Shown: positions 42,021 to 54,722 of the stretch, piece after piece
How positions within the stretch are numbered: the first letter of the stretch is position 1
Layout of the letters: each line of letters opens with the position of its first letter
Assembly (NCBI GenBank): GCA_025916675.1
Contig: CP098402.1
Location: 677,205-741,204, forward strand
From: Phycisphaera sp.
GTDB taxonomy: Bacteria > Planctomycetota > Phycisphaerae > Phycisphaerales > UBA1924
Length of the DNA: 64,000 nt
Reading direction: 5' to 3'
The notes under the pieces: model-generated
What the model saw: the letters and a program-made list of their open reading frames with translations, nothing else
What the model was told of the DNA's origin: nothing
The model's database searches: none
Translations under genes and position numbers: made by a program

Positions 42021-44072
42021 CTACTCGCAACCGGCGTCGAACTCCGTCTGGAAGGCCAGGAAGTCGAAGATGGTGAGGGCACCGTCGCCGTCAAAGTCGA
42101 GCGAGAGATCGCCGGCATCAAAGCCGGTCTGGAAGGCGAGGAAGTCGAAGATGGTGAGCACGCCGTCTGCGTCGATGTCGACGCGGCAGGTGATGCCGGC
42201 CTTGTGGTAGATCTCGCCCTGGAAGCCCGCGGTCCAGACGCCGCCGTCTGGTGAGATCTCGATCTCGGTGGTGGAGGTGAACTCGCCCTGATCGACGGTT
42301 TCTTCGGTCCATGTGCGGCCGCCGTCGGTGGAGTGCATGACGTAGTTGCGGCTGAGGTCGCGGTCGTAGGCGGTGATCCAGATCTCTTCGGGTGAGACGA
42401 CCTTGACGCCCTGGAGGATGGTCTGGGTGGGCAGGCCGAGGTCCATGAACTCCCACGACTGGCCGCCGTCGGCGCTCTTGATGGCATAGCCCCACCAGCC
42501 GACGACCCAGCCGTGGTTCTCGTCGAGGAAGTGCACGTCTTCGACCGAGGCCGAGCCGAATCGCGGGTGGTTGGGGAGCAAACGGTCTTCCCAGGTGTCG
42601 CCGCCGTTGACGGTGCGGAACTGGCGTCCGCCGGGCATCTGCATCCAGCCGTTGTCTTCGTCGATGAACTGGACGCGGATGCCGAAGAAGTCGAGGGCGC
42701 GTGTCCAGTTGAATCCGTCGACGGTGTGGTAGAGGCCGAAGTCTCCGATGACCCAGCCCTCAAATTCCGAGACGAAATCGATGTCTTCGATGTCGAACAG
42801 GGGGGGAAGGCTCGGGGCACCGATCTGCGACCAGAATTGCCCACCGTCGAAGCTCTGGAAGACGACGCCGCCCGCGCCGGCGGCGACAATGACGTCGCGC
42901 GAGACGAAGTCAACGGCGGCCACGTTCTCGTCGCGGCCGAAGATCGGGCCCTCGAGGACGAGGCGCTGGAGGTCCCAGGAGTCTCCGCCGTCTTCGGTGC
43001 GCATGACGTAGTTGCCGCCGGCGGCCATGCCGAAGTCGTCGTCGAACATGTCGAGGTCGGTGACGGTGAAGCCGCCGCCGTTTTGGATCATGTCCCAGTT
43101 GCGTCCGCCGTCGGTTGTGGCCAGGAGGATGCCGCGCGGCCCGGCGGCGTAGCCGTGGAGGTCGTCGGCGAAGTGGAGCTGCCAGGAGTAGGGCAATGTC
43201 CCGACGGCGCCCTGCCGTTTGGTCCACCGGAAGCCGCCATCGTTGGACATCCAGATGGCCCCCTGGCTGGAGATGGCGGCGACGGTGGTCGCGTTGACGC
43301 GTTCCATGTCGACGTCGGGGGCTTCCTCGCCGAAGAAGACGCCGGTCTCGAACCAGGTGATGCCAGCATCGTCGGAGTACCAGATGGTGCTGACGTTCTC
43401 GCCGGCGAGCTCGCTGAAGACCTGGGCGATCACGCGGTCGCCGTCCATGAAGATCACGTCGTTGCTAGTCTTGTCCAGAACCTTGGTCCAGGTGCGTCCG
43501 CCGTCGGTTGTGCGGTAGATGCCCAGGTCTCCGGCACCGGGGCCGACCTGGTCTCCGCTGACGAGGCCGACGGTTTCGCTCTGGAAGTCCATGCCATAGA
43601 CGACCGGACAGTCGGGGTAGCCGCTGCGGACCTCCCAGGTGAGGCCGCCGTCGGTGGATGCGGAGAGGGCGCCGTTGGCACCGATAACGAGGCTGGTCGG
43701 GCTGAACGAAACGACCTCTCGCCAGGAGCCGCCTTCGATGTCGGTCATCTGCTGCCAGGATTCGCCGGCATCGGTGGTTCGGTAGGCACCGTTGTTGTTG
43801 CCGATGACCCAGCCGTTCTGGTCGTCGTGGAAGTGGACGTTGTAGAAGGGGCCGGTGGTGAAGACGCCGGAGAAGATGGTCTCCCAGGTCTCGCCGCCGT
43901 CGCGCGTGCGCATCAGGTTCCGATTGACCCCGCAGATGAAGCCGAGATCAGGATCGATGAAGGCCGCGGCGTAGAGGTCCCTGCCGGTGGGGCTTGGGGC
44001 CTGCTTGATCCAGTCCTGGGCGCTCGCGAGGGGGGCTAGGGCGAGGGCGAGCGTGATGGGGAGGAGTCGCAT
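42021..44072 (-). CDS. Secreted BNR/YCF48-type beta-propeller with GC-type dockerin tail
   Basis: 683 residues. Signal peptide about 1-18 (…APLASAQ). At least a dozen repeats follow the BNR/Asp-box style: TRDGGETWE, TTDAGESWQ, STDGGLTWE, TTDGGRTWT, SNDGGFRWT, TTDGGRNWD, TEDGGDSWD, SADGGQSWE, STDGGRTWT, each with a G-W/F-V/A-G strand between. The pattern resembles YCF48/sortilin propellers, used elsewhere as binding scaffolds or glycosidase-like folds. Tail loops are DIDADGV and DFDGDGA, ending FDAGCE. AGGAACAGAG precedes the ATG. It follows the 44107 gene by 34 bp on the same strand. Confidence 0.9.
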   Translation of the reverse strand: MRLLPITLALALAPLASAQDWIKQAPSPTGRDLYAAAFIDPDLGFICGVNRNLMRTRDGGETWETIFSGVFTTGPFYNVHFHDDQNGWVIGNNNGAYRTTDAGESWQQMTDIEGGSWREVVSFSPTSLVIGANGALSASTDGGLTWEVRSGYPDCPVVYGMDFQSETVGLVSGDQVGPGAGDLGIYRTTDGGRTWTKVLDKTSNDVIFMDGDRVIAQVFSELAGENVSTIWYSDDAGITWFETGVFFGEEAPDVDMERVNATTVAAISSQGAIWMSNDGGFRWTKRQGAVGTLPYSWQLHFADDLHGYAAGPRGILLATTDGGRNWDMIQNGGGFTVTDLDMFDDDFGMAAGGNYVMRTEDGGDSWDLQRLVLEGPIFGRDENVAAVDFVSRDVIVAAGAGGVVFQSFDGGQFWSQIGAPSLPPLFDIEDIDFVSEFEGWVIGDFGLYHTVDGFNWTRALDFFGIRVQFIDEDNGWMQMPGGRQFRTVNGGDTWEDRLLPNHPRFGSASVEDVHFLDENHGWVVGWWGYAIKSADGGQSWEFMDLGLPTQTILQGVKVVSPEEIWITAYDRDLSRNYVMHSTDGGRTWTEETVDQGEFTSTTEIEISPDGGVWTAGFQGEIYHKAGITCRVDIDADGVLTIFDFLAFQTGFDAGDLSLDFDGDGALTIFDFLAFQTEFDAGCE

Positions 44073-44106
44073 TTCTCTGTTCCTGTTCTCGTGGTTGTCT
44101 TGGGAT

Positions 44107-45639
44107 TTACGGACAGCCGGCGTCGAACTCGGTTTGGAACGCCAGGAAGTCGAAGATGGTCAGGCTGCCATCGCCGTCGAAGTCGGCCGCGGGGTCGCCG
44201 GCGTCGAAGGCTGTCTGGAAGGCGAGGAAGTCGAAGATGGTGAGGGCACCATCACCGTCGAAATCGGCGCGGCAGCGGGTGCCGCCGAAGGCGGGCATCT
44301 TCCAGGCGCCCATGCCGGTCTGGCCCGTGGTGGCGTCGGAGAGGTAGCTGGTGACGTAGAAGTTGTCGGCGTTGTCGAGATGCACGGTGCCGGCGGGGAC
44401 CTCCTGGGAGACGCGGCGTTCGAGCTCGAAGCCGGAGTCCTTATCCAGGTGGAAGAGGATGGTGTGGCGGCTGTAGGGCGGGGAGTTGGTGGCACCAAGC
44501 ATGAGTAGGTTGCCGGCGGTGTCGATGACGAGGTCGCTCGGGGCGTCGGAGCAGCCGCGGCAGGTGGCGCCGTAGTCAAAGTCCCAGAGGAACGCGCCGC
44601 TGCCGGCATCGCGCTTGACGGCATAGATGACGTCGTTGAAGTTGCTGCGATTGCCGTCGAGGTCGGCCGTGCCAGCGAGGTAGACGCCGCCCCGGCCATC
44701 GAGGACGATATGGCGGGCGCTATCGCGGATGCCGTGGCTGTCGTAGGCACGCCAGATCTCGCCACCGGTCCGGCCGTCGACCTTGACGGTGAAGAACTTG
44801 TTGGTGAGGTCGATGCCCACGCCGGTGATGTAGATGTCGCCGTCGTCGTCGACGACGAACTCGGTGGCGTACTCGCCGCCGCGGGTGCCGTAGTTGTTGA
44901 GCCAGATAAGGTCGCCATTGGACGCGTCGTACTTCGCGAGCACGTAGTCGGGCTGGAGGTCGCTCATGACGCCGTAGTGCCGCACGATCAGCGAGCCGTC
45001 GCCCTCGAGGTGCACCTGGTCGACGTGGTCGCTCGAGTACGGCGAGTGGGCGGGGCCGTCGTAGGTCGTGACCCAGTTGGTGGTGCCATCGGGGTTCAGC
45101 CCCACCAGCAGCGAGTCGGCGCCGTCGCCGTTGGTCCCGCCGCCGAAGATGACCGAACCGTCGGCCCCGGCGACGAGTTCGTAGGCACCCTCGGCAATGC
45201 CGGGGCGGCTGTGGTAGATGGTGTCGTTGAGGATCGAGCCGGAGGAGGGATCGAACTCGAGCACGAGGGCCTGGGCGTGCTTGCTGGCGGCGGGCGTGTT
45301 GCCGCTGGCGAAGACCTGGCCGGTGGGCGCGACGGTAATGGAGCGGCCCTGATCGTGCCAGTCCCCCGGCCCGTTGTACTGCTCGACCCAGAGCACGCTG
45401 CCGTCGGCGTCGATGGCCGCGGCGACGAGGTCGGTGTTGAAGGACGGGCCGTTGGTGCCCACGAGGTAGACCCGCCCGGCGACCGGGTCGAGGTCGGCGT
45501 CGGCGAGCCCGCTGGCCAGGTGGGTGCCGGTGTCGACGATGGTGAGCCAGTCGTAGTCGATGTCCTGCGCGTCAGCCGCGGTTGGCAGGGCGAGTGCCAG
45601 GCCGCAGGCGATCATCAGTTGTGGCGTCCGGTATCGCAT
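44107..45639 (-). CDS. Secreted beta-propeller protein (SBBP-like repeats) with GC-type dockerin tail
   Basis: 510 residues. AAGGAG eight nt before ATG 45639 and a signal peptide (about 1-24, ending TAADAQ) set the start. The body alternates DxDGSVLWVEQYNGPG, NPDGTTNWVTTYDGPA, DASNGDLIWLNNYGTRGG and similar 'D-x-x-G-x-x-x-W' strands with VDDDGDIYITG or LDGRGGVYLAG strands, as in SBBP/beta-propeller repeat proteins. A CRGC motif near residue 379 may be a disulfide or metal site. The tail has two DFDGDG loops and ends FDAGCP. Probably cotranscribed with 42021. Confidence 0.88.
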   Translation of the reverse strand: MRYRTPQLMIACGLALALPTAADAQDIDYDWLTIVDTGTHLASGLADADLDPVAGRVYLVGTNGPSFNTDLVAAAIDADGSVLWVEQYNGPGDWHDQGRSITVAPTGQVFASGNTPAASKHAQALVLEFDPSSGSILNDTIYHSRPGIAEGAYELVAGADGSVIFGGGTNGDGADSLLVGLNPDGTTNWVTTYDGPAHSPYSSDHVDQVHLEGDGSLIVRHYGVMSDLQPDYVLAKYDASNGDLIWLNNYGTRGGEYATEFVVDDDGDIYITGVGIDLTNKFFTVKVDGRTGGEIWRAYDSHGIRDSARHIVLDGRGGVYLAGTADLDGNRSNFNDVIYAVKRDAGSGAFLWDFDYGATCRGCSDAPSDLVIDTAGNLLMLGATNSPPYSRHTILFHLDKDSGFELERRVSQEVPAGTVHLDNADNFYVTSYLSDATTGQTGMGAWKMPAFGGTRCRADFDGDGALTIFDFLAFQTAFDAGDPAADFDGDGSLTIFDFLAFQTEFDAGCP

Positions 45640-45812
45640 CGTGTGTTCTCCTTGTCGATAGGGCATAGCGAGGCGCATGCCGGTGCGTGACCGGGCGCGC
45701 GGCTTGCACACGGGCACCCAGGGCGTGTAGCAGGGTTTTGACAGGCTCGTGGTGGCCGGTATGCGGCCGCTGGTGGCCGATGGTGTTTGGTTGCGGGCTG
45801 TTCGGCGCGCTG

Positions 45813-47168
45813 CTAGGGGCAGCCGGCGTCGAAGGCGTTCTGGAAGGCGAGGAAGTCGAAGATGGTCAGCGCGCCGTCGCTGTCGAAGTCGGCGGCAAGG
45901 TCGCCCGTGTCGAAGAGGTTCTGGAACGCCAGGAAGTCGAAGATCGTGAGCTCGCCGTCGCCGTCGAGGTCGGCCTGGCAGGCGATCAGGTCAAAGACAT
46001 AGGCCGAACCGGATTCGGTGCCCGCGTCGTCGTCGCCCCACGTCCCGGCGATGGCCGAGCTGTCGGAGATGGCCACGGAGCTGCCTAAGAAGTCGAACTC
46101 CTCGGCGTCGGACGCGGTGAGCTTAAACAACTGCTCGCCCGTGGTCGTGTCGAAGATGTAGGCCGAGCCGCTGCTGAGGCCCGAGTCGTCGTCCTGAAAA
46201 GACCCAACGATGGCGGTGGTGCCGGAGATGGCGACGGAGGAGCCGAACCAGTCTTCCCTGTCGGCGTCGGACGCGGTGAGCTTGAAGAGCTCCTGGCCGG
46301 TCGTCGTATCGAAGATGTAGGCAGAGCCGGATTGGGAGCCCCCCTCGCCATCTCGGAATGCCCCAATGACGGCGGTGGTGCCGGAGATGGCCACGGAGAT
46401 ACCGAAGGAATCGAACGGCGCGGCGTCGGACGCGGTGAGCTTGAAGAACTGCTGGCCGGTCGTTGCGTTAAAGAGGTAGGCAGAGCCGGACTGCGAGCCC
46501 GCGTCGTCGTTGCGATAGGCCCCGACGATTGCGACGGGGCCGGAGATGGCCACCGAGGCGCCGAAGAAGTCGTCCGCCGCGGCATCCCTCGCGGTCAGCT
46601 CGAAGAGCTGCTGGCCGGTGGTCGTGTCGAAGATGTAGGCCGAGCCGGTCGAGCTGGCGACGCCAGCCGCCCCGACGATGGCGAGGGTGCCCGAGATGTC
46701 CACGGAGAAACCGAACTGGTCCAGGGCGGCGGCGTCGGACGCGGTGAGCTTGAACAGCTCCTGGCCGGTTGCCGCGTCGAAGAGGTAGGCAGAGCCCGAG
46801 CGGGAGCCCGCGTCGTCGCTCTCGTATGCCCCGACGATGGCGGTGGTGCCGGAGATGGCCACGGAGTTGCCGAACGAGTCGAACGCCTGCGCGTCGGACG
46901 AGGTGAGCTTGAACAGTTCCTCGCCGGTCGTGAGGTCCAGGATGTACGCGGATCCCGCGCCCGGGCCCCCGTCTTCGTCGAGCGATGCCCCAGCGATCAC
47001 GGTTGTGCCGCTGATGGCCACGGATCGGCCGAACTGGTCCCCGTCTTCGGCATCGGATGCGGTGAGCTTGGAGTCCTCATTGAGCGTCTGGGCGGAGGCG
47101 GAGATTGCGGCGAGAGTCGGCAGGGCCACAGCGGCCAGAACGATCAGGGGGCGGGCTGTCTGTTGCAT
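45813..47168 (-). CDS. Secreted FG-GAP repeat protein with GC-type dockerin tail
   Basis: 451 residues. GAGGTGAG before ATG 47168 and a signal peptide (about 1-26, ending SASAQ) set the start. Eight repeats of about 46-47 residues follow: KLTASDAx(2-4)FG-SVAISGTTAIVGA, a D/E-rich turn, then SGSAYIFDTTTGQELF. The units are near-identical, implying recent internal duplication; DNA repeats of about 140 bp are visible. The tail has DLDGDGE and DFDSDGA loops and ends FDAGCP. The second loop has Ser in place of Gly. A good promoter lies 65 bp upstream. Confidence 0.9.
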   Translation of the reverse strand: MQQTARPLIVLAAVALPTLAAISASAQTLNEDSKLTASDAEDGDQFGRSVAISGTTVIAGASLDEDGGPGAGSAYILDLTTGEELFKLTSSDAQAFDSFGNSVAISGTTAIVGAYESDDAGSRSGSAYLFDAATGQELFKLTASDAAALDQFGFSVDISGTLAIVGAAGVASSTGSAYIFDTTTGQQLFELTARDAAADDFFGASVAISGPVAIVGAYRNDDAGSQSGSAYLFNATTGQQFFKLTASDAAPFDSFGISVAISGTTAVIGAFRDGEGGSQSGSAYIFDTTTGQELFKLTASDADREDWFGSSVAISGTTAIVGSFQDDDSGLSSGSAYIFDTTTGEQLFKLTASDAEEFDFLGSSVAISDSSAIAGTWGDDDAGTESGSAYVFDLIACQADLDGDGELTIFDFLAFQNLFDTGDLAADFDSDGALTIFDFLAFQNAFDAGCP

Positions 47169-47232
47169 GATGGTTCTCACCTCTGTGTGGGGCAGGCGCA
47201 CGCCGGCCCTGGCGGGCTCGGCCTGGCTCGCC

Positions 47233-47261
47233 AGTGTACAGGAAAGTGACGGTTTTCGCAA
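47233..47261 (-). promoter_or_regulatory. Promoter of the 45813 FG-GAP gene
   Basis: On the minus strand TTGCGA (47261-47256), 17 bp, then TACACT (47238-47233). It predicts a ~60-nt leader with a ribosome site, unlike the leaderless genes, yet uses the same TAC-N2-T type of -10. Confidence 0.6.
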
Positions 47262-47378
47262 GGTTTTATTGGCCGACGCGGATGACCTGGTGGCCACCGC
47301 ACCCCAAGCCCAAGCCTCCCAAGCCCACCCATGCTCGCCAAGTTCGCTTGCCAGACTAGCCCACGAGGCCCGAAAACC

Positions 47379-47399
47379 TCAGGGGCAGCCGGCGTCGAA
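47379..47399 (-). pseudogene. Relic of a GC-type dockerin tail
   Basis: On the minus strand the last seven codons read F-D-A-G-C-P-stop. Eighteen bases here are identical to the end of the 45813 gene. Nothing upstream resembles the rest of the tail, only a CA/CG-rich stretch, so this looks like the eroded or recombined 3' end of a former surface-protein gene. Confidence 0.5.
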
Positions 47400-47451
47400 C
47401 GTGCACGCACGCCCGAAAGCACCACACACGCACCCGTGCCCGCGCACGCGC

Positions 47452-47477
47452 ACGAGAAAGCGGGCCCCGGGGCCCGC
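47452..47477 (-). terminator. Terminator-like palindrome after the 47513 gene
   Basis: GCGGGCCCC/GGGGCCCGC (47460-47477) is a perfect 18-bp palindrome; on the minus strand it is followed by TTTCTC. With no loop bases the hairpin must open in the centre, but the position 36 bp past the stop fits termination. Confidence 0.5.
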
Positions 47478-47512
47478 ATGGTGTGTGAGTTGTGAACGAA
47501 CGGGCCCGCCCG

Positions 47513-48202
47513 CTAGGCCGCCTGGCCCGCCTGGCCGTCCCCGGGCATGGCGATGATCGTCGCCTGGTTGCCCGCGCCGAAACGCACGGCGAACAGGGCG
47601 GGGGCCCCGTTCTTGGTGGCCGTCTCGGCGGTGATGCGGTAGGTCGCCACGCCGGTGCCCTCGGGGATGCCCGAGTCGGTGAAGCGGCGCTCCTTGGCGT
47701 TGACGACGAACAGGAACGGCTCGCCCTGCCCGGCGCCAAGCCGCCGCTCGACGCGGTAGATGGCCTCGCCGGTGCGGGGCGGGTTGGGGCACTTGAAGCC
47801 CAGGGTGATGGCCCCGTCCTGGAGCAGCTCGACCCTGAAATCGGTGGGCGTGCCGGGGGCCGGCCGCGGCGCGCGATCGGCCGGGGCCGGGATGCCCGCG
47901 GCCTGGTAGACGAGCGCCGGCTCGGCCGAGCCGCGCGCGAAGGCGCGGACCTTGGCCACCAGCACCGAGGCGTCGTCGAGCATCGACTCGATGCCGCTGG
48001 AGTAGGCTTCCGAAGCGCCGAGCCAGGCCGTCCGGGCCGCGTCGAAGGACGACTTGCGGTCCTGGGCCTGCTGGACCAATGCGGCCATGTTCGCCACTTC
48101 GGTGGCGTCGAGCCCCACGGCGGCGGGGTCGGCCGACCACAGGGTGGCGTGCTCGTCGCACCAGTCCAGGGCGGCGTCGTTGGTTCGTGGGATGGTGCTC
48201 AT
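47513..48202 (-). CDS. Hypothetical protein with possible C-terminal fibronectin type III-like domain
   Basis: 229 residues, no signal peptide. Residues 1 to about 95 are helical (ALVQQAQDRKSSFDAARTAWLGASEAYSSGI, key AALVQQAQDRKSSFDAART). A Pro-rich linker (about 100-120) leads to a beta-rich domain (about 120-220): DFRVELLQDGAITLGFKCPN, IYRVERRLGAG, GVATYRITAETATKNG, a strand pattern like fibronectin type III. I do not recognise a named family. ATG 48202 overlaps the stop of a doubtful upstream frame. It lies in a low-conservation stretch next to tandem repeats. Confidence 0.65.
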   Translation of the reverse strand: MSTIPRTNDAALDWCDEHATLWSADPAAVGLDATEVANMAALVQQAQDRKSSFDAARTAWLGASEAYSSGIESMLDDASVLVAKVRAFARGSAEPALVYQAAGIPAPADRAPRPAPGTPTDFRVELLQDGAITLGFKCPNPPRTGEAIYRVERRLGAGQGEPFLFVVNAKERRFTDSGIPEGTGVATYRITAETATKNGAPALFAVRFGAGNQATIIAMPGDGQAGQAA

Positions 48203-48918
48203 GACGCACCCCCGTTCTTATATTCGGCGCGGTCCGCGGCCGCGTCGGGATGCGAGAGGGTGGAGCCGGCGCGTGCGGTGGTCGCCGGCGTTCCGAAAGC
48301 AGAAGCGGTGTGCATTGCGTTGCACTCCAAGGCCACCGCGCCCGATTCCCCACGGCCCGCGACCCGTTTCTTGTGGGGCCCCGGTTCTTCCTTTGAACGC
48401 GGGATCCGCCTTGTATTCGCGGGCGGCGTCGCCCGCCCGGCCCGATATCCCCGGGCCGGTCCGAAAAGAACTTCGGGAGGATCAGAGGACGACTTCAATG
48501 GGATCCAAGATTTTTCGTCGGCGTTTTTCGGACCCGTCTCGGCCCGGGCCAGAAACCCCGCTGGTACGCTCCCAGGGCGGTTTGGGGCCCCGTTCCGGGT
48601 CCGATCACACGAGTACAGGAGACACAAACTCATGAACTGGAGTCTCGCACTCATGAGTTCTCGTCCCGCGATCATGAGTTGGAGACCCCCGATCCTGAGC
48701 CCGAGCCCCGCGCTCCTGAGTTGGAGGCCCGCGCACAAGAGTGTCCACCCCCCGCTCATGGGTTTACCGCTCGCGCTCATGAGGCCGAGGCTCGCGCTCA
48801 CGAGTTGGAGGCCCCCCGGCACGACCGGCGCGGCGCGGGCGTCCCCCCGTCCGAGCCGCGTGCGTGAGCACGCGTGCCAGCGACAGCACGGTGACCTGGC
48901 TTTCGCGAATGGACCGCT
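48203..48918. other. 716-bp region with tandem repeats, no certain gene
   Basis: Contains the 21-bp tandem repeat (48631-48840) and an 8-bp inverted repeat CCGGCCCG (48437-48444)/CGGGCCGG (48452-48459). Minus-strand frame 48199-48822 (207 codons, GTG start) overlaps the next ATG by four bases, and plus-strand ATG 48632 has AGGAG upstream, but neither has convincing composition. Confidence 0.5.
48631..48840. repeat. 21-bp tandem repeat, about ten copies in exact phase
   Basis: Units begin at 48631, 48652, 48673, 48694, 48715, 48736, 48757, 48778, 48799 and 48820. The rough consensus is CATGAGTTGGAGGCCCGCGCT. Copies have diverged by substitution but no insertion or deletion breaks the 21-base step. 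In three frames the unit encodes a heptapeptide: R-A-H-E-L-E-A or M-S-W-R-P-A-L on the plus strand and G-L-Q-L-M-S-A on the minus strand. Confidence 0.8.
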
Positions 48919-49446
48919 CTACTGGCCCGCGGTCTCGTCCGCCGCCGCGCCCTCGTCGGCCGGCTGCCCTGCCGTGGCGGTCGCGTCGGCCTTGAACCAG
49001 CCGCCAAAGCGGATGCACACCTTGGCCGTCCCCCGAATGCTGGCGACCAGCGTGCCGACGGCGGAGCCGGCGAGGTCCTTCACCGCCGCGGTGAGATCGT
49101 CGAGTGCGCCAGCATGGACGGATAAGCGACTGACCTGCCAGCCATCGGGCGACTTGATCTTGATGTGCTCGATGCGTGTGCGTACGCGGTCGTCGGCGTC
49201 GGACATCGCCTTGTCGGCGATCTCTCGGATGTCTCGCGCTCGGGTCGTCGGCACCGTCGGCTCGGGCGGGTGCTCGGCGGGCTCGCCGTCGAGTCCGAGT
49301 TCCCGCATCCGCTTCTGGGCGTGGTAGGCGATCGCTTTCAGCCGGCGGATCTCATCCGGATCGCTCGGCGTCGATCCGTCGTCGTTGTCCTTGGGCCCCA
49401 GCAGGAACTCGTTGAACTCGCCGTCGCTCGGTAGGTGCTCGCTCAT
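48919..49446 (-). CDS. Hypothetical protein in operon with dsRBD protein
   Basis: 175 residues. It is acidic at the N-terminus, then RRLKAIAYHAQKRMRELGLDG (about 33-53), a Pro-rich linker and a helical C-terminal half (ARDIREIADKAMSDADDRVR, LTAAVKDLAGSAVGTLVASIRG). No signal peptide, no motif that I know. ATG 49446 overlaps the TGA of the 49443 gene (ATGA), so the two are coupled and perhaps act together. The last 20 residues are Ala/Glu/Thr-rich. Confidence 0.65.
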   Translation of the reverse strand: MSEHLPSDGEFNEFLLGPKDNDDGSTPSDPDEIRRLKAIAYHAQKRMRELGLDGEPAEHPPEPTVPTTRARDIREIADKAMSDADDRVRTRIEHIKIKSPDGWQVSRLSVHAGALDDLTAAVKDLAGSAVGTLVASIRGTAKVCIRFGGWFKADATATAGQPADEGAAADETAGQ

Positions 49447-50474
49447 CGCCCACCCCCGGCTTCCACGCAACCGGGATCGCCCACGCCGATGGGCAACTCG
49501 TCCTCGTCGAGAACGGGCGCGGCCGAGGCGTCGTCAAGGATGCGCAGCCCGTTGCCGCCCATCGCCACGTGCAGGGCGCTCATCTCGGCGAACAGGCGGG
49601 CGACGCGTTGGTTGAATTCCTTGGACGCTTGCTCGTCCATGCCCGGCGGCGTCTGGATCTCGATCTTCAAAGATGGCGGCGCGGGGGCTGTGGCTTCTTC
49701 TATTGACCAACCCTCGGGCGCGCCTTCGGGCCACATCGGGCCGAAGAACTCGGGGGGAACGGGGGTGTCGTCGGTCCAGTGCTCGGCTTGGCTGGTGCGG
49801 AGGAGGAGGTCGTAGTCATGGCGGATGGCAGCGGTGGCGTCGCCAACACCTCGAGCAGCGTACGCGACCGCACGGATAACCGCGACTGCGGCTTGGTCAT
49901 CATCAGCAGCATTCGCAGCCGCAGCCGCAGCTGCCGCATATGCCGCTGCTTCTGCTGGAGCGACATCGGTTCCACCAGCGGAAACATCTCTAGCATTCTG
50001 CAATGCGGTTCCATGTGCGGCGCTACTTAGCTGTATGAAATCAGTATCGCCATAGCGCGTTGGGTGTGCAGCAAATCGCTCAGCGAATCGGATGGCTTCA
50101 ATGACTGAATCTACTTGTTTACGAGTCGCCTTGCGCCATGTTGCCTCAAAGAGCGGCTGCACTCGTCGAGCGCAACGTGCTGCGAAAGCGACTCGCGCGA
50201 GTAGAGACAGCTTGTAAATCTCGTCTCCGGTTGGAACTTCATTCAAAGGTTCGAGCCCGAGCTCGCGCAAAGCCTCGTGCGCAGCATGTTGTTCCGCCCG
50301 CTCCTTGGACTGACCCCATTGCGCAGGATAGAGGTGTCCGGCAAACTCCGCGGCAACCTTGAAGCTCTTGGCGTGATCGGGACCCTGCTCATCAATAATG
50401 TGGTAGTGGGGAGTGACGCCGAATTGCTGCTGGGCATGCTGCTGCAGCAAACTCTTGAAGTTCTTCTCACGCAT
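49443..50474 (-). CDS. Stand-alone double-stranded RNA-binding domain protein
   Basis: 343 residues. Residues about 5-75 match a dsRNA-binding domain: NFKSLLQQHAQQQFG (helix 1), YHIIDEQGPDHAKSFKVAAEF (strand loop GPDHAKSFKV) and QWGQSKERAEQHAAHEAL (helix 2, with the SK-x2-AE-x3-A signature). No RNase III or adenosine-deaminase domain follows. The middle (about 110-225) is Ala-rich and helical, with A/AA periodicity ending in HDYDLLLR, a style frequent in planctomycete proteins. The C-terminal part has PPSLKIEIQTPPGMDEQASK. Base composition of its 5' part is about 54% G+C, lower than neighbours. Ligand (host or foreign dsRNA) is unknown. Confidence 0.78.
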   Translation of the reverse strand: MREKNFKSLLQQHAQQQFGVTPHYHIIDEQGPDHAKSFKVAAEFAGHLYPAQWGQSKERAEQHAAHEALRELGLEPLNEVPTGDEIYKLSLLARVAFAARCARRVQPLFEATWRKATRKQVDSVIEAIRFAERFAAHPTRYGDTDFIQLSSAAHGTALQNARDVSAGGTDVAPAEAAAYAAAAAAAANAADDDQAAVAVIRAVAYAARGVGDATAAIRHDYDLLLRTSQAEHWTDDTPVPPEFFGPMWPEGAPEGWSIEEATAPAPPSLKIEIQTPPGMDEQASKEFNQRVARLFAEMSALHVAMGGNGLRILDDASAAPVLDEDELPIGVGDPGCVEAGGGR

Positions 50475-50504
50475 ACCTGATATTAGCGGGCTCTCCCTGT
50501 CACT

Positions 50505-51824
50505 TCACCCATGCCCCGGCAACGCAAACCGCCCACACAACGCCCGCACTTCTTCGCGCACATTCCCCGCCTCCCCCTCCAACTCACCCTTCAGCCCCGC
50601 CGAAAGCACGCGGTCGATCATCTCGGCGACCTGCTTCATCTCACCCTCACCAAACCCGCGCGTGGTGACGGCGGCGGCGCCCAGGCGAATCCCGCTCGTG
50701 GTCTTGGGCGGGCGCGAGTCCTGGGGGATGCCGTTCTTGTTGCAGATGATGCCGGCCTGCTCGAGCCAGTGCTCGGCGTCCAGGCCAGTCAGGTCGGCGC
50801 TCTTGGTGCGCAGGTCGACGAGCATGAGGTGGTTGTCGGTGCCGCCGCTGGTGATGCGGTAGTTCTTGCTCGCGAGCGCGCCGGCGAGGGCCTGGGCGTT
50901 GGCGATGACGTTCCTGGTGTATGTCTTGAACTCGGGCTGCAGCGCCTCGCCGAACGCGATGGCCTTGGCGGTGATGACGTGCATGAGCGGGCCGCCCTGC
51001 ATGCCGGGGAAGACGGCGCGGTTGAGCTTCTTGGACAGGTCCTCGTCATTGGTCATGATGAGCCCGCCGCGCGGGCCGCGCAGGGTCTTGTGCGTGGTCG
51101 TCGTGACCACGTGCGCGTGCGGGAAGGGGCTGGGCACCGCGCCCGCGGCAACGAGCCCAGCAATATGCGCGATGTCGGCGAAGAGGATGGCGCCCACCTC
51201 GTCGGCGATGGCGCGGAACCTGGCGAAGTCGATCATCCGCGGGTAGGCCGAGAAGCCGCACATCAGGATCTTTGGCTTGTGCTCGCGGCACACCGCGGCG
51301 ACCGAGTCGTAGTCGATCCGCTCGAAGTCGGGGTGGCTCTCGTCGTAGTGCAGCGAGTAATGCACCGGCTTGAACCACTTGCCGCTCATGTTGACCTTCA
51401 GCCCGTGGCTGAGATGCCCGCCGTCGGCCAGGTTGAGCGAGGCGAACGTGTCGCCGGGCTGGAGCAGCGCCAGGAAGGCGGCGGCGTTGGCCTGCGCGCC
51501 CGAGTGCGGTTGCACGTTGGCGTACTCGCACCCGAAGAGCTGCTTGGCCCGGTCGATGGCGAGCTGCTCGATGGCGTCGTGGTGGATGCAGCCGCCGTAG
51601 TAGCGGGCGCTCGGATATCCCTCGGCGTACTTGTTGGTCATGCACGTGCCCGCGGCGGCCATGACGGCCGGGCTGGCGTGGTTCTCGCTGGCGATCAGCT
51701 CAATAGTTGTCGCCTGCCGCTCGCCCTCGGCGTCGAGGATGGCGGCGACGTCGGGATCCTGCGAGCGGATGAGGTCGACGGCCGAGTCATGCACGGAATG
51801 CTGGGCTGTGGTCGTGTGGGGCAT
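50505..51824 (-). CDS. glyA: Serine hydroxymethyltransferase
   Basis: Interconverts serine and glycine with tetrahydrofolate, supplying one-carbon units. 439 residues. [17 protein letters not shown] (about 39-55), [14 protein letters not shown] (about 60), [17 protein letters not shown] and [14 protein letters not shown] (PLP-binding Lys, about 245) are present. ATG 51824 has TACACT ending 5 nt upstream and no Shine-Dalgarno; a long open frame continues upstream to 52232 only by antisense chance. Divergent from the aldehyde dehydrogenase gene, with both -10 boxes within 50 bp. Confidence 0.97.
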
Positions 51825-51829
51825 GGGCC

Positions 51830-51835
51830 AGTGTA
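51830..51835 (-). promoter_or_regulatory. -10 element for leaderless glyA
   Basis: TACACT on the minus strand ends 5 nt before ATG 51824. Confidence 0.55.
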
Positions 51836-51874
51836 GGACCGATGGGCCCAAAAACCCCGTCTCCTTTGGCGATC

Positions 51875-51880
51875 TACAGT
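51875..51880 (+). promoter_or_regulatory. -10 element for leaderless start at 51886
   Basis: TACAGT ends 5 nt before GTG 51886; faces the glyA promoter 40 bp away. Confidence 0.5.
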
Positions 51881-51885
51881 GCCCC

Positions 51886-53355
51886 GTGAGCAGCACGATC
51901 ACGACCAACGCGACCCAACTTGCCAACTGGATCGGCGGCGAGCCCAAGCCCGCCGCCGCCGGCGCGACGATCGAGAACGTCGACCCGGCGACCGGCGACA
52001 CCATCGGCACGATCCCGGCCTCGACCAAGGCGGACGTGGACGCGGCGGTGGTGGCGGCCAGCGCAGTGCGTGGCTGGGCAACGCTGTCGGGCGAGACTCG
52101 GGGGGACATCCTGCATGGGCTGGCAACCGCAATCGAGGACGACTCCGAATTGTTCGCGCACGCGGAGAGCCGGGACAGCGGGAAACCGATCTCGATAGCC
52201 GAGGAAGTCGACATCGCCCGCTCGGTACGCAACCTCAGGTTCTTTGCAGCGGCGGCCAGCCAGTTTGCCAGCGAGAGCCACGACGTGCCGGGCCGGATGC
52301 TCGGCTACACGCTGCGGCGGCCAAAGGGCGTGATCGGTGCGATCAGCCCGTGGAACCTGCCGCTGTACCTGCTCACGTGGAAGATCGCCCCGGCCCTCGC
52401 GGCAGGATGCACGGTGGTGGCCAAGCCCAGCGAGCTGACGCCTACTACGGCGAGCATGCTCGGCGAGCGAGCGGCGAGAGTGCTGCCGCCCGGCGTGCTG
52501 AACATCGTGCATGGCTACGGCGAGCCGGCGGGCGCTTCCATCGTCACACACCCGGGCATCGCCGCCGTGACGTTCACGGGCTCGACCAAGGTCGGCCGCT
52601 GGATCGGCAAGGCGTGCGGCGAATCGCTCAAGCCCTGCTCACTCGAACTCGGAGGCAAGAACCCGTTCATCGTGTTCGACGATGCGGACATCGAGAAGGC
52701 CAGCGAGACCGCCGTCCGCGCCGCGTTCAGCAACCAGGGGCAGATCTGTCTCTGCGGCTCGCGCGTGCTGGTGCAATCGGGCGTGTACGACCGGGTCGTT
52801 GGGCGACTTGTTGACGGCGCGAAGGCGCTCACGCCTGGCGATCCGCAGGACGATGCCACGCGGTTTGGTTCGCTGGTGAGCCACGACCACCGCGACAAGG
52901 TCGCCGGTTATGTCGAGCGGGCGGTGGGGGAGGGCGCGCGCATCCTGGCAGGCGGCGCGAGGCCCGAGAGCTTGCCCGATCGCGTCAAGAACGGCGCGTA
53001 CTACCTGCCGACCGTCATCGAGAACGCCAGCCAGAATTGCGCCATCATCCAGGAAGAGGTCTTCGGCCCGGTTTGCACCGTGCAGAAGTTCGAGACCGAG
53101 GCCGAGGCGATCGAACTGGCCAACGGAACGCCCTACGGCCTGGCCGCCAGCGTGTGGACACAGAACCTCGCCTGCGCCCATCGCGCCAGCGCCGCGCTCG
53201 AGGCCGGAATCGTCTGGGTCAACTGCTGGATGCTCCGCGACCTGCGCACGCCCTTCGGCGGAGTCAAACAATCGGGCGTCGGCCGCGAGGGCGGCTGGGA
53301 AGCGATGCGTTTCTTCACCGAGCCCAAGAGCGTCACCATCAACACGAGCGAGTAA
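51886..53355 (+). CDS. Aldehyde dehydrogenase, 2-aminomuconic semialdehyde type
   Basis: 489 residues, NAD-dependent. [19 protein letters not shown] (about 151-169), [14 protein letters not shown] (about 227), [11 protein letters not shown] (general base Glu, about 253) and [11 protein letters not shown] (catalytic Cys, about 288) are present. The C-terminal [17 protein letters not shown] closely resembles the ALDH8/aminomuconate-semialdehyde branch, and the next gene encodes a 2-aminomuconate deaminase-like protein. I therefore infer a step of tryptophan (kynurenine-3-hydroxyanthranilate) or aminophenol breakdown. The dioxygenase and decarboxylase genes are not in the window. GTG start by -10 spacing. 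Confidence 0.88.
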
Positions 53356-53357
53356 GC

Positions 53358-53798
53358 ATGTCCGACCAGATCTCGACCGATGCCGCGCCCAAGCCCGTCG
53401 GCGCGTACCCCCACGCCCGTCGCGTGGGTGACTTGCTGTTCTGCTCGGGCGTGGGCCCGCGCGCCCCGGGCGAGAACACCGTACCCGGCGTCACACTCAA
53501 CGACTCTGGGGAGCTCATCGACTACGACTTCGAGGCCCAATGCCTGGCCTGCTTCGCCAATATCCGGGCCGTGGTCGAGGCCGGCGGGGCGCGGTTCGAG
53601 GATATCGTCGATGTTCAGGTGTACCTGACCGACTTGCAGCGCGACTTTGCCGCCTTCAACATGCTCTGGAGGGCTACCTTTGCGGGCGAGGGAAAACCGA
53701 ACCCGTGCCGAACAACAATCGAGGTCAGCCGGCTGCCCCAGGGCGGGAATGCCCCGATAGCCGTGGAACTCAAGGTTGTCGCGCGAATCGCGGGCTGA
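53358..53798 (+). CDS. RidA-family protein, 2-aminomuconate deaminase-like
   Basis: 146 residues. The family core is PKPVGAYPHARRVGDLLFCSG (about 10-30), FANIRAVVEAGGARFEDIVDVQVYL (key RAVVEAGG and VDVQVYLTD), and NPCRTTIEV with the Arg that binds the substrate carboxylate. PVGAYPHARRVG and GVGPRAPG distinguish 2-aminomuconate deaminases (AmnD/NbaF type) from general imine deaminases. ATG lies 2 nt after the dehydrogenase stop, so they are one operon: the dehydrogenase would make 2-aminomuconate and this protein would deaminate it. Confidence 0.87.
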   Translation: MSDQISTDAAPKPVGAYPHARRVGDLLFCSGVGPRAPGENTVPGVTLNDSGELIDYDFEAQCLACFANIRAVVEAGGARFEDIVDVQVYLTDLQRDFAAFNMLWRATFAGEGKPNPCRTTIEVSRLPQGGNAPIAVELKVVARIAG

Positions 53799-53900
53799 CA
53801 ATCTAGCGTATTGAATATTGGGGCGGCTGCAAGGAATGGCCCGCCACGCCGACCCATGTGTCGAGTCGCTATCAAGAAGAACCCGCGTGGAGGAGATGCC

Positions 53901-54722
53901 ATGACCAGTCGCCAAATCCGAACACTCACCTGCCTGTTTGCCCTGGCCGCAGTACCGGCGGTTGCCCAAGCCCAATCGACAGCAACCTACCGCGTGACCT
54001 TCGACGCAACTTGGTCGGCGGCGACCCATCCCACGGCCTTCCCCCCCAGCCCCCACTTCTCGGGTCTGGTGGGCGCGACCCATAGCGATGGAGCCACACT
54101 GTGGCAATCGGGCGAACTGGCCAGCACGGGCATCGAGCGGATGGCCGAAACTGGCTCCAAGTCCGTGCTCTTGAGCGAGATCGGCGCGATGGAAGACGAC
54201 GGGTTCATCGGTGCCACGCTGTCGGGCGGTGGCATTGGCTTGTCGCCGGGCCGCGTGGCCCTCACGTTCGAGACTTCCAGTGACTATCCGTTGCTGAGCC
54301 TTGTCAGCATGATCGCTCCGAGCCCCGATTGGTTCGTGGGCACGCAAAGCCTCTCGCTGCGTGACGACGACGGTTGGATCCAGACAATCGAGTTCGAGCT
54401 GTGGCCCTACGACTCGGGCACCGACTCGGGCGTCAGCTACACCTCGCCCAACTTCGACACCAACCCGGCCGAGCCCATCGCGAACATTTCGGACGTGTTC
54501 CCTTTCACGGGCACACCCGCCTTGGGCACGTACAGCATCGAGCTCGTCAGCGTCGAGTGCGTGGCCGAACTGGATGGAGATGGCGTCCTGACCATCTTCG
54601 ACTTCCTCGAGTTCCAGAACCTGTTCGATGCGGGCGACCTGGCCGCCGACCTCGACGGTGATGGCGACCTGACCATATTCGACTTCCTCGCCTACCAGAA
54701 CGCCTTCGGCGAGGGCTGCTAG
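53901..54722 (+). CDS. Secreted spondin-domain protein with GC-type dockerin tail
   Basis: 273 residues. GGAGGAG five nt before ATG 53901 and a signal peptide (about 1-23, ending VAQAQS) fix the start. Residues about 26-215 match a spondin N domain: YRVTFDATWSAATHP, PHFSGLVGATHSDGATLW, GELASTGIERMAETG, SPDWFVG and YDSGTDSGVSYTSPN with the metal- or ligand-binding Asp residues. The tail has DLDGDGV and DLDGDGD loops, LTIFDFLEFQN and LTIFDFLAYQN, ending FGEGC with no residue after Cys, unlike the other seven tails. Adhesion to matrix or polysaccharide is inferred. Confidence 0.87.
   Translation: MTSRQIRTLTCLFALAAVPAVAQAQSTATYRVTFDATWSAATHPTAFPPSPHFSGLVGATHSDGATLWQSGELASTGIERMAETGSKSVLLSEIGAMEDDGFIGATLSGGGIGLSPGRVALTFETSSDYPLLSLVSMIAPSPDWFVGTQSLSLRDDDGWIQTIEFELWPYDSGTDSGVSYTSPNFDTNPAEPIANISDVFPFTGTPALGTYSIELVSVECVAELDGDGVLTIFDFLEFQNLFDAGDLAADLDGDGDLTIFDFLAYQNAFGEGC

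Follow-up and report, generated by a model that had tools for sequence, protein, structure and literature searches.

The A–B locus

Here we describe a two-gene locus in 64,000 nucleotides of the genome of the planctomycete Phycisphaera sp. (contig CP098402.1, positions 677,205 to 741,204); this whole stretch is hereafter referred to as the window. The locus comprises gene A, encoding a 343-residue protein that starts with a double-stranded-RNA-binding domain (dsRBD), and gene B, encoding a 175-residue partner. Upstream of gene A lies a gene that we take from its sequence to be that of serine hydroxymethyltransferase (SHMT). The features are as follows:

49443..50474, minus strand: gene A, 343 residues, composed of a dsRBD, a helical Ala-rich module and a short C-terminal 'GGxGL' module (stop-free frame in a one-contig genome; Pfam dsrm)
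50253..50468, minus strand: dsRBD, gene A residues 3–74, from a genus RNase III (identity, tree, rates of substitution)
49701..50246, minus strand: helical module, gene A residues 77–258 (alignments of 12 and 25 members, segment identities)
49542..49700, minus strand: GGxGL module, gene A residues 259–311 (segment conservation; recurs with tandem CsrA at locus L092)
48919..49446, minus strand: gene B, 175-residue partner of gene A (orthologue in 5 of 163 family genomes)
49443..49446, minus strand: ATGA, gene A stop and gene B start (sequence; 4-base overlaps recur at other A–B loci)
50505..51794, minus strand: SHMT-like gene upstream of gene A, start uncertain (present in all seven genus genomes)

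The original prediction, made from the letters of the DNA, had joined the dsRBD protein to an unknown 175-residue gene by ATGA, and this arrangement was confirmed (49443–49446, with no family match for B); the overlap probably couples translation of the two genes. The lower GC content that it had also described holds for gene A (0.613, compared with 0.664 for the window), and specifically for the dsRBD part (0.582) and residues 76–230 (0.578); it does not extend to gene B (0.691) or to gene A residues 231–343 (0.681). At third codon positions, the GC content (GC3) is 0.46 for residues 76–230 (49785–50249), 0.82 for the C-terminal part of A and 0.87 for B, a contrast that makes the N-terminal part of A look as though it had a different history.

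The dsRBD of gene A derives from RNase III

The gene A protein matched the Pfam family dsrm (PF00035) over residues 7–72, with an E-value of 4.9e-16 and 59.5 bits (cut-off 23), covering positions 2–66 of the 66 in the model. The sole further Pfam row was another dsRBD model, DND1_DSRM, at 0.0079 and below its cut-off. The NCBIfam model of RNase III (TIGR02191) aligned at positions 150–218 of 219 only, with 52.7 bits (cut-off 166). As this is the dsRBD end of the model, no nuclease domain is seen in the protein, and neither this model nor Pfam found an RNase III catalytic domain in it. The description of a dsRBD protein without any nuclease domain was thus borne out. The window genome encodes a separate RNase III of 263 residues, and this enzyme and gene A account for the two dsRBD matches of the genome.

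RNA contacts of dsRBDs are presumably made by helix 1, the GPxH loop and the KK pair of helix 2. The LQQ of helix 1, the GPDHAK loop and the first Lys of the KK pair are all kept in gene A. An AlphaFold2 model, in which an alpha-beta-beta-beta-alpha fold was looked for, displayed helices only, with a confidence score (pLDDT) of 39–42 at residues 21–50, in the middle of the domain; the underlying alignment had 11 rows, of which the query was the only one with a dsRBD.

The gene A dsRBD is 72% identical over 72 residues to that of RNase III from its own genome and 64–78% identical to those of six other genus members. A tree built from the DNA sequences of 26 dsRBDs places it with the seven RNase III genes of the genus (support 98/93), on a long branch near those of genome G001 and of its own genome. 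Its GC3 is 0.69, compared with 0.88 for its own RNase III. Pairwise ratios of non-synonymous to synonymous substitution (dN/dS) between the gene A dsRBD and the seven genus RNase III genes are 0.09–0.13 at dS 1.0–2.1, the dS values being near saturation and each ratio including the RNase III branch as well. Such ratios at such distances suggest that the capture was not recent and that the domain was retained for its amino-acid sequence.

On this sequence evidence, gene A is chimeric, with a genus RNase III dsRBD copied onto the N-terminus of an A protein that is otherwise found without one. The tree suggests that A gained the dsRBD, rather than that all other members lost it. As to whether the domain belongs to a known RNase III, which the original prediction had named as a ground for rejection, the domain does derive from RNase III and the protein is not an RNase III.

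The A family is patchy and diverges unevenly

Residues 77–343 of A match dsRBD-less proteins in relatives, and none of the other members that we read has a dsRBD. The helical module opens with a conserved N motif (LPxxARVAFAARCARRVxPLF), continues through variable Ala-rich helices (residues 118–205) and closes with a conserved DYELL..WPxGxPEGW end. Across five A–B pairs, the GGxGL segment is the best conserved of five A segments (mean identity 0.50). By eye we guessed a strand-helix-strand structure for this module, of which the model of A shows the helix alone.

Members of the A family occur in at least 21 of 163 genomes of the family, at least 13 of 294 in the phylum sample and, with a wider profile, at least 33 of 397 in the class sample. 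These counts are lower bounds, with up to 16, 8 and 6 candidates scored per genome, respectively.

One genus member, G003, carries a 278-residue A protein without a dsRBD and a 179-residue B behind its SHMT gene, as in the window. Thus a dsRBD-less A–B pair exists at the window's own locus. In the five other genus genomes, neither A nor B was found within 1.5 kb behind the SHMT gene (neighbouring genes were called with a crude GC3 gene finder and this absence was checked by tblastn, which gave no hit there better than E 0.35). Between the window and G003, SHMT is 83% and B 68% identical; within A, identities are 32/53 in the GGxGL segment, 19/40 in the N motif and 17/80 in the middle helices. 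Uneven, fast divergence is common in the recognition proteins of biological conflicts, and the pattern in A resembles that of such a protein.

Known families gave little purchase on A. A relationship to DUF416 was considered and rejected: one of 25 A members matched it at 0.0012, profile comparison (hhalign) with E. coli YjaG gave E 0.12 and none of the seven genus genomes contained a match. Profile searches of the PDB returned best E-values of 0.22 for A and 0.78 for B.

The dsRBD–A fusion is found in one genome

The original prediction had proposed looking for the dsRBD together with the C-terminal region in other genomes; no second dsRBD–A fusion turned up in the family or among the phylum genomes with at least two dsRBD matches. 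Whole-protein searches of 101 relatives gave no further match spanning both the dsRBD and A parts. In the family, 152 of 163 genomes have a dsRBD match and only two (G000 and G381) have two matches. The second match in G381 was considered as a second fusion and rejected, being a 31-residue fragment at a contig end. In the phylum, a dsRBD match was obtained in 374 of 392 genomes and at least two matches in nine, the frames of which we read by eye. The original prediction had placed nearly all bacterial dsRBDs within RNase III; seven of these nine genomes hold only frames that read as RNase III and two hold another kind as well. The non-RNase III frames are the gene A protein and a beta-CASP nuclease (G264). 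In the eight multi-match genomes other than that of the window, the frames are RNase III paralogues, RNase III with tandem dsRBDs and the G264 nuclease. Among 194 loci, 78 frames match the dsRBD profile and 119 the A profile, and the window gene, represented six times in this set, is alone in matching both. Nothing in the plasmid and phage collections matched the whole 343-residue protein at E 1e-5. Viral contigs contained one relative of A (L127, described below), none of B and, in a single-query search, none of the gene A dsRBD.

Gene B and the A–B cassette

Searches of Pfam, NCBIfam and PADLOC, taken up to E 10, gave no family for the 175-residue B protein, and the PHROGs matches were at E 0.23 and 0.3 only; no enzyme can be recognised in it. 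Its type was found in 5 of the 163 family genomes, directly downstream of A in all five. At several A loci, though not all, a small gene overlaps the end of A by 4 bases. By BLAST, 21 proteins from the B position fell into clusters of five (with window B), six and two, with eight in none; homology between these unlike types, which form separate clusters, is not established. A scan of window B and of nine further proteins from the B position recognised no toxin family. The window genes fit a cassette in which an A protein with helical and GGxGL modules is followed by an overlapping B.

A modules recur in other proteins

Frames bearing the A helical module also matched, in Pfam, Mrr_cat (1.5e-13, and a second at 5.1e-4, just below cut-off), Pkinase with LRR (9.6e-24), DUF4259 (7.3e-21), DUF6161 (two frames, lying 1.1 kb and 2.6 kb away from a phage integrase), SMI1_KNR4 (1e-4, below cut-off) and, weakly, TPR; the frames at L060 and L054 had no Pfam match. 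A KAP NTPase (5.6e-28) also carries the helical module or a relative of it, as do eight Ser/Thr kinases. Some of the fusion frames match the A profile weakly (L055, 4.5e-9; L066, 1.6e-7; L194, 2.3e-4). At L194 (1–1935, minus strand), this weak match lies at the N-terminus of the KAP family P-loop NTPase.

The eight planctomycete Ser/Thr kinases (L179, L180, L181, L182, L183, L185, L187 and L189) carry a C-terminal WACRCARRV module. Comparison of profiles with hhalign indicates that it is homologous to the A helical module (E 4.6e-15). In a hidden Markov model search between A and the kinase-borne module, 10 of the 25 A members outscored all 1000 shuffled sequences and 15 did not; the window protein scored 1.6e-6. 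The kinase-borne modules matched DUF6931 in five of eight cases and Imm5_like in two of eight, all weakly (best 5.8e-5 and 0.049, respectively; the best DUF6931 match, in L181, reached 23.6 bits where the cut-off is 27). None of the 25 A members reached either family at E 0.1.

The relative of A on a viral contig (L127, 3608–5887, plus strand) combines the helical module with a protein kinase and LRR, and stands beside a HigB toxin gene, a helix-turn-helix gene and a capsid gene. In PADLOC, its kinase is related to PD-T4-6 and the adjoining HigB toxin to PD-Lambda-2.

At L092 (1024–1653, plus strand), tandem CsrA domains (1.9e-16) are joined to a GGxGL segment (E 1.8e-4), followed by a small gene with a 4-base overlap. 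With the dsRBD of window A, two unlike RNA-binding domains have thus been placed on a GGxGL-type module, and L092 would be another RNA-binding form of the cassette. Overall, a module without a name is now visible across planctomycete kinases, Mrr and KAP proteins and A–B cassettes.

Surroundings of the locus

An Rfam scan of 46000–54000 gave nothing reaching the gathering score, and promoter and terminator counts in 48200–50700 were not above those of shuffled sequence. Downstream of gene B, the window contains an imperfect 21-base tandem repeat of about four copies with a 74% match (48651–48733). Further along, 42021–47297 encodes three large predicted proteins of secreted type with repeated C-terminal 'DGxLTIFDFLAFQxxFDAG' motifs, dockerin-like by eye.

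A candidate RNA-recognising conflict cassette

The setting of the A family appears conflict-like, as supported by its patchy distribution, its fast change, its several partner types, its fusions to Mrr, KAP and kinase proteins and the presence of some copies on mobile elements. We tentatively favour, at somewhat less than even likelihood, the reading that A–B is an undescribed, conflict-like planctomycete cassette of two genes, of which the window version would recognise RNA through its captured dsRBD. The N-terminal half of A would be a swappable, fast-evolving recognition part; the GGxGL module would link recognition to B itself or to a B-containing complex, B being produced in step with A. 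Through the dsRBD, the window cassette could grip RNA that is structured or double-stranded, for instance transcripts of phages or substrates of RNase III, and RNA binding might alter the A–B complex and so release or activate its effect. The literature, surveyed by title and abstract with subscription papers mostly outside its scope, held no account of A, B or a dsRBD–A fusion, and did not name DUF6931. The original prediction had read the protein as a sensor or regulator of double-stranded RNA, conceivably in defence. This is supported in part: a genuine dsRBD, a partner of no known family, coding constraint and a conflict-like family speak for it, and the lack of a PADLOC match speaks against it.

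A number of observations weigh against an RNA-recognising conflict cassette. The KK pair is KE in gene A, its second Lys being present in 25 of 25 RNase III dsRBDs compared; with an RNA-contact Lys replaced by Glu, the domain may bind RNA weakly or no longer bind it. Only one genome is known to carry the fusion. PADLOC gave no family for A or B up to E 10 and, on 25 A members, just four single hits (E 0.025–0.095). The models suggest no function (mean pLDDT 63 for A and 40 for B), and a Foldseek search of the A model against the PDB returned nothing at E<0.001. Placing the fusion dsRBD just outside the clade of seven genus RNase III genes was not rejected by the approximately unbiased test (p 0.229), so that the donor can be placed only approximately; the near-saturated dS and the RNase III branch included in each ratio count here too. 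Lastly, the flanking genes that we read by eye resemble metabolic genes of an ordinary kind and genes for secreted-type proteins, and none of them was recognised as a defence gene.

Much of the same evidence can be read in other ways. A–B could be a housekeeping RNA regulator that modulates RNase III, either as a competitor for its substrates or as its partner in a pair, with no link to defence. The descent of the dsRBD from RNase III and the metabolic neighbourhood behind SHMT would suit such a role; we consider it unlikely, as A–B lies behind SHMT in just two of seven genus genomes and evolves far faster than its SHMT neighbour, and the A of a sister species has no dsRBD. It is quite unlikely that the fusion is a product of chance with little function, in which recombination joined the dsRBD to an A protein that works as its dsRBD-less relatives do. 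Occurrence in a single genome, the K to E change and a dsRBD GC3 of 0.69, below the 0.88 of its own RNase III, are in line with this, but a dN/dS of about 0.1 at dS 1.0–2.1, together with a full-length dsRBD match of 59.5 bits, argues for retention of the domain on account of its protein sequence.

There are two further readings. A–B might form a pair of the toxin–antitoxin or polymorphic immunity kind: either B would be the toxic member or A would neutralise in the manner of an Imm protein, and autoregulation would be tuned by the dsRBD. Two overlapping genes, one of them small, several B types and the weak matches of kinase-borne relatives to DUF6931 (5/8) and Imm5_like (2/8) point this way. 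We nevertheless rate it improbable: no toxin family appeared in window B or the nine other B-position proteins, and the occurrence of the helical module in kinases and an NTPase makes an antitoxin role less sensible. Integrated decoys occur in plant NLR receptors, and the captured dsRBD could likewise mimic RNase III, catch a phage factor aimed at that enzyme and thereby trigger A–B. A constrained copy of part of a host protein that has nonetheless exchanged an RNA-contact Lys for Glu would be in keeping with a decoy, as would the tandem CsrA of another GGxGL protein, likewise a type of bacterial regulator. Yet most RNA-contact positions are kept (LQQ of helix 1, the GPDHAK loop and the first Lys) and there is no known phage factor, interaction or trigger, which leaves the decoy distinctly improbable.

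Under a bolder form of the RNA-recognising conflict cassette, A–B would serve planctomycetes as an undescribed defence cassette and would acquire new specificities by taking over RNA-binding domains from host regulators, a dsRBD in the window and CsrA at L092; we regard this as doubtful. Animals detect viruses with dsRBD proteins, including PKR. Phages can also produce double-stranded RNA, but most of the dsRBDs in bacteria go with RNase III. If the defence-cassette reading were true, gene A would encode a bacterial immune sensor or decoy with a canonical dsRBD, as in PKR. A captured and constrained RNase III dsRBD in a fast-evolving cassette is a concrete candidate for dsRBD-based sensing in bacteria.

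Comparison with known systems

The closest known relative of part of gene A is RNase III (TIGR02191), with which it shares a dsRBD that is 72% identical to that of its own genome's enzyme over 72 residues. By contrast, gene A has no catalytic domain, a different C-terminal part, an overlapping partner gene and Glu in place of the second Lys. The beta-CASP metallo-beta-lactamase with a dsRBD (G264, L160) is another bacterial dsRBD protein outside RNase III and from the same phylum; it is a nuclease, and no A or B module was seen in it.

Cyanobacterial fusions of HEPN, RNase III and dsRBD have been discussed by their authors among RNA-based defence systems; these keep the RNase III domain, and the passages on them name no A or B modules (PMC3710099). 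In bacterial immunity, structured phage RNA is reported to trigger the CBASS cyclase CdnE03, a precedent for the kind of trigger considered here; the abstract mentions no dsRBD (PMC10686824). DUF6931 and Imm5_like are weakly matched by the kinase-borne modules homologous to the A helical module, and differ from A in that the 25 A members do not match them at E 0.1. PKR, finally, differs from A in having a kinase domain, which A itself does not; it resembles A in carrying a dsRBD on a signalling protein, and relatives of the A helical module do occur on Ser/Thr kinases.
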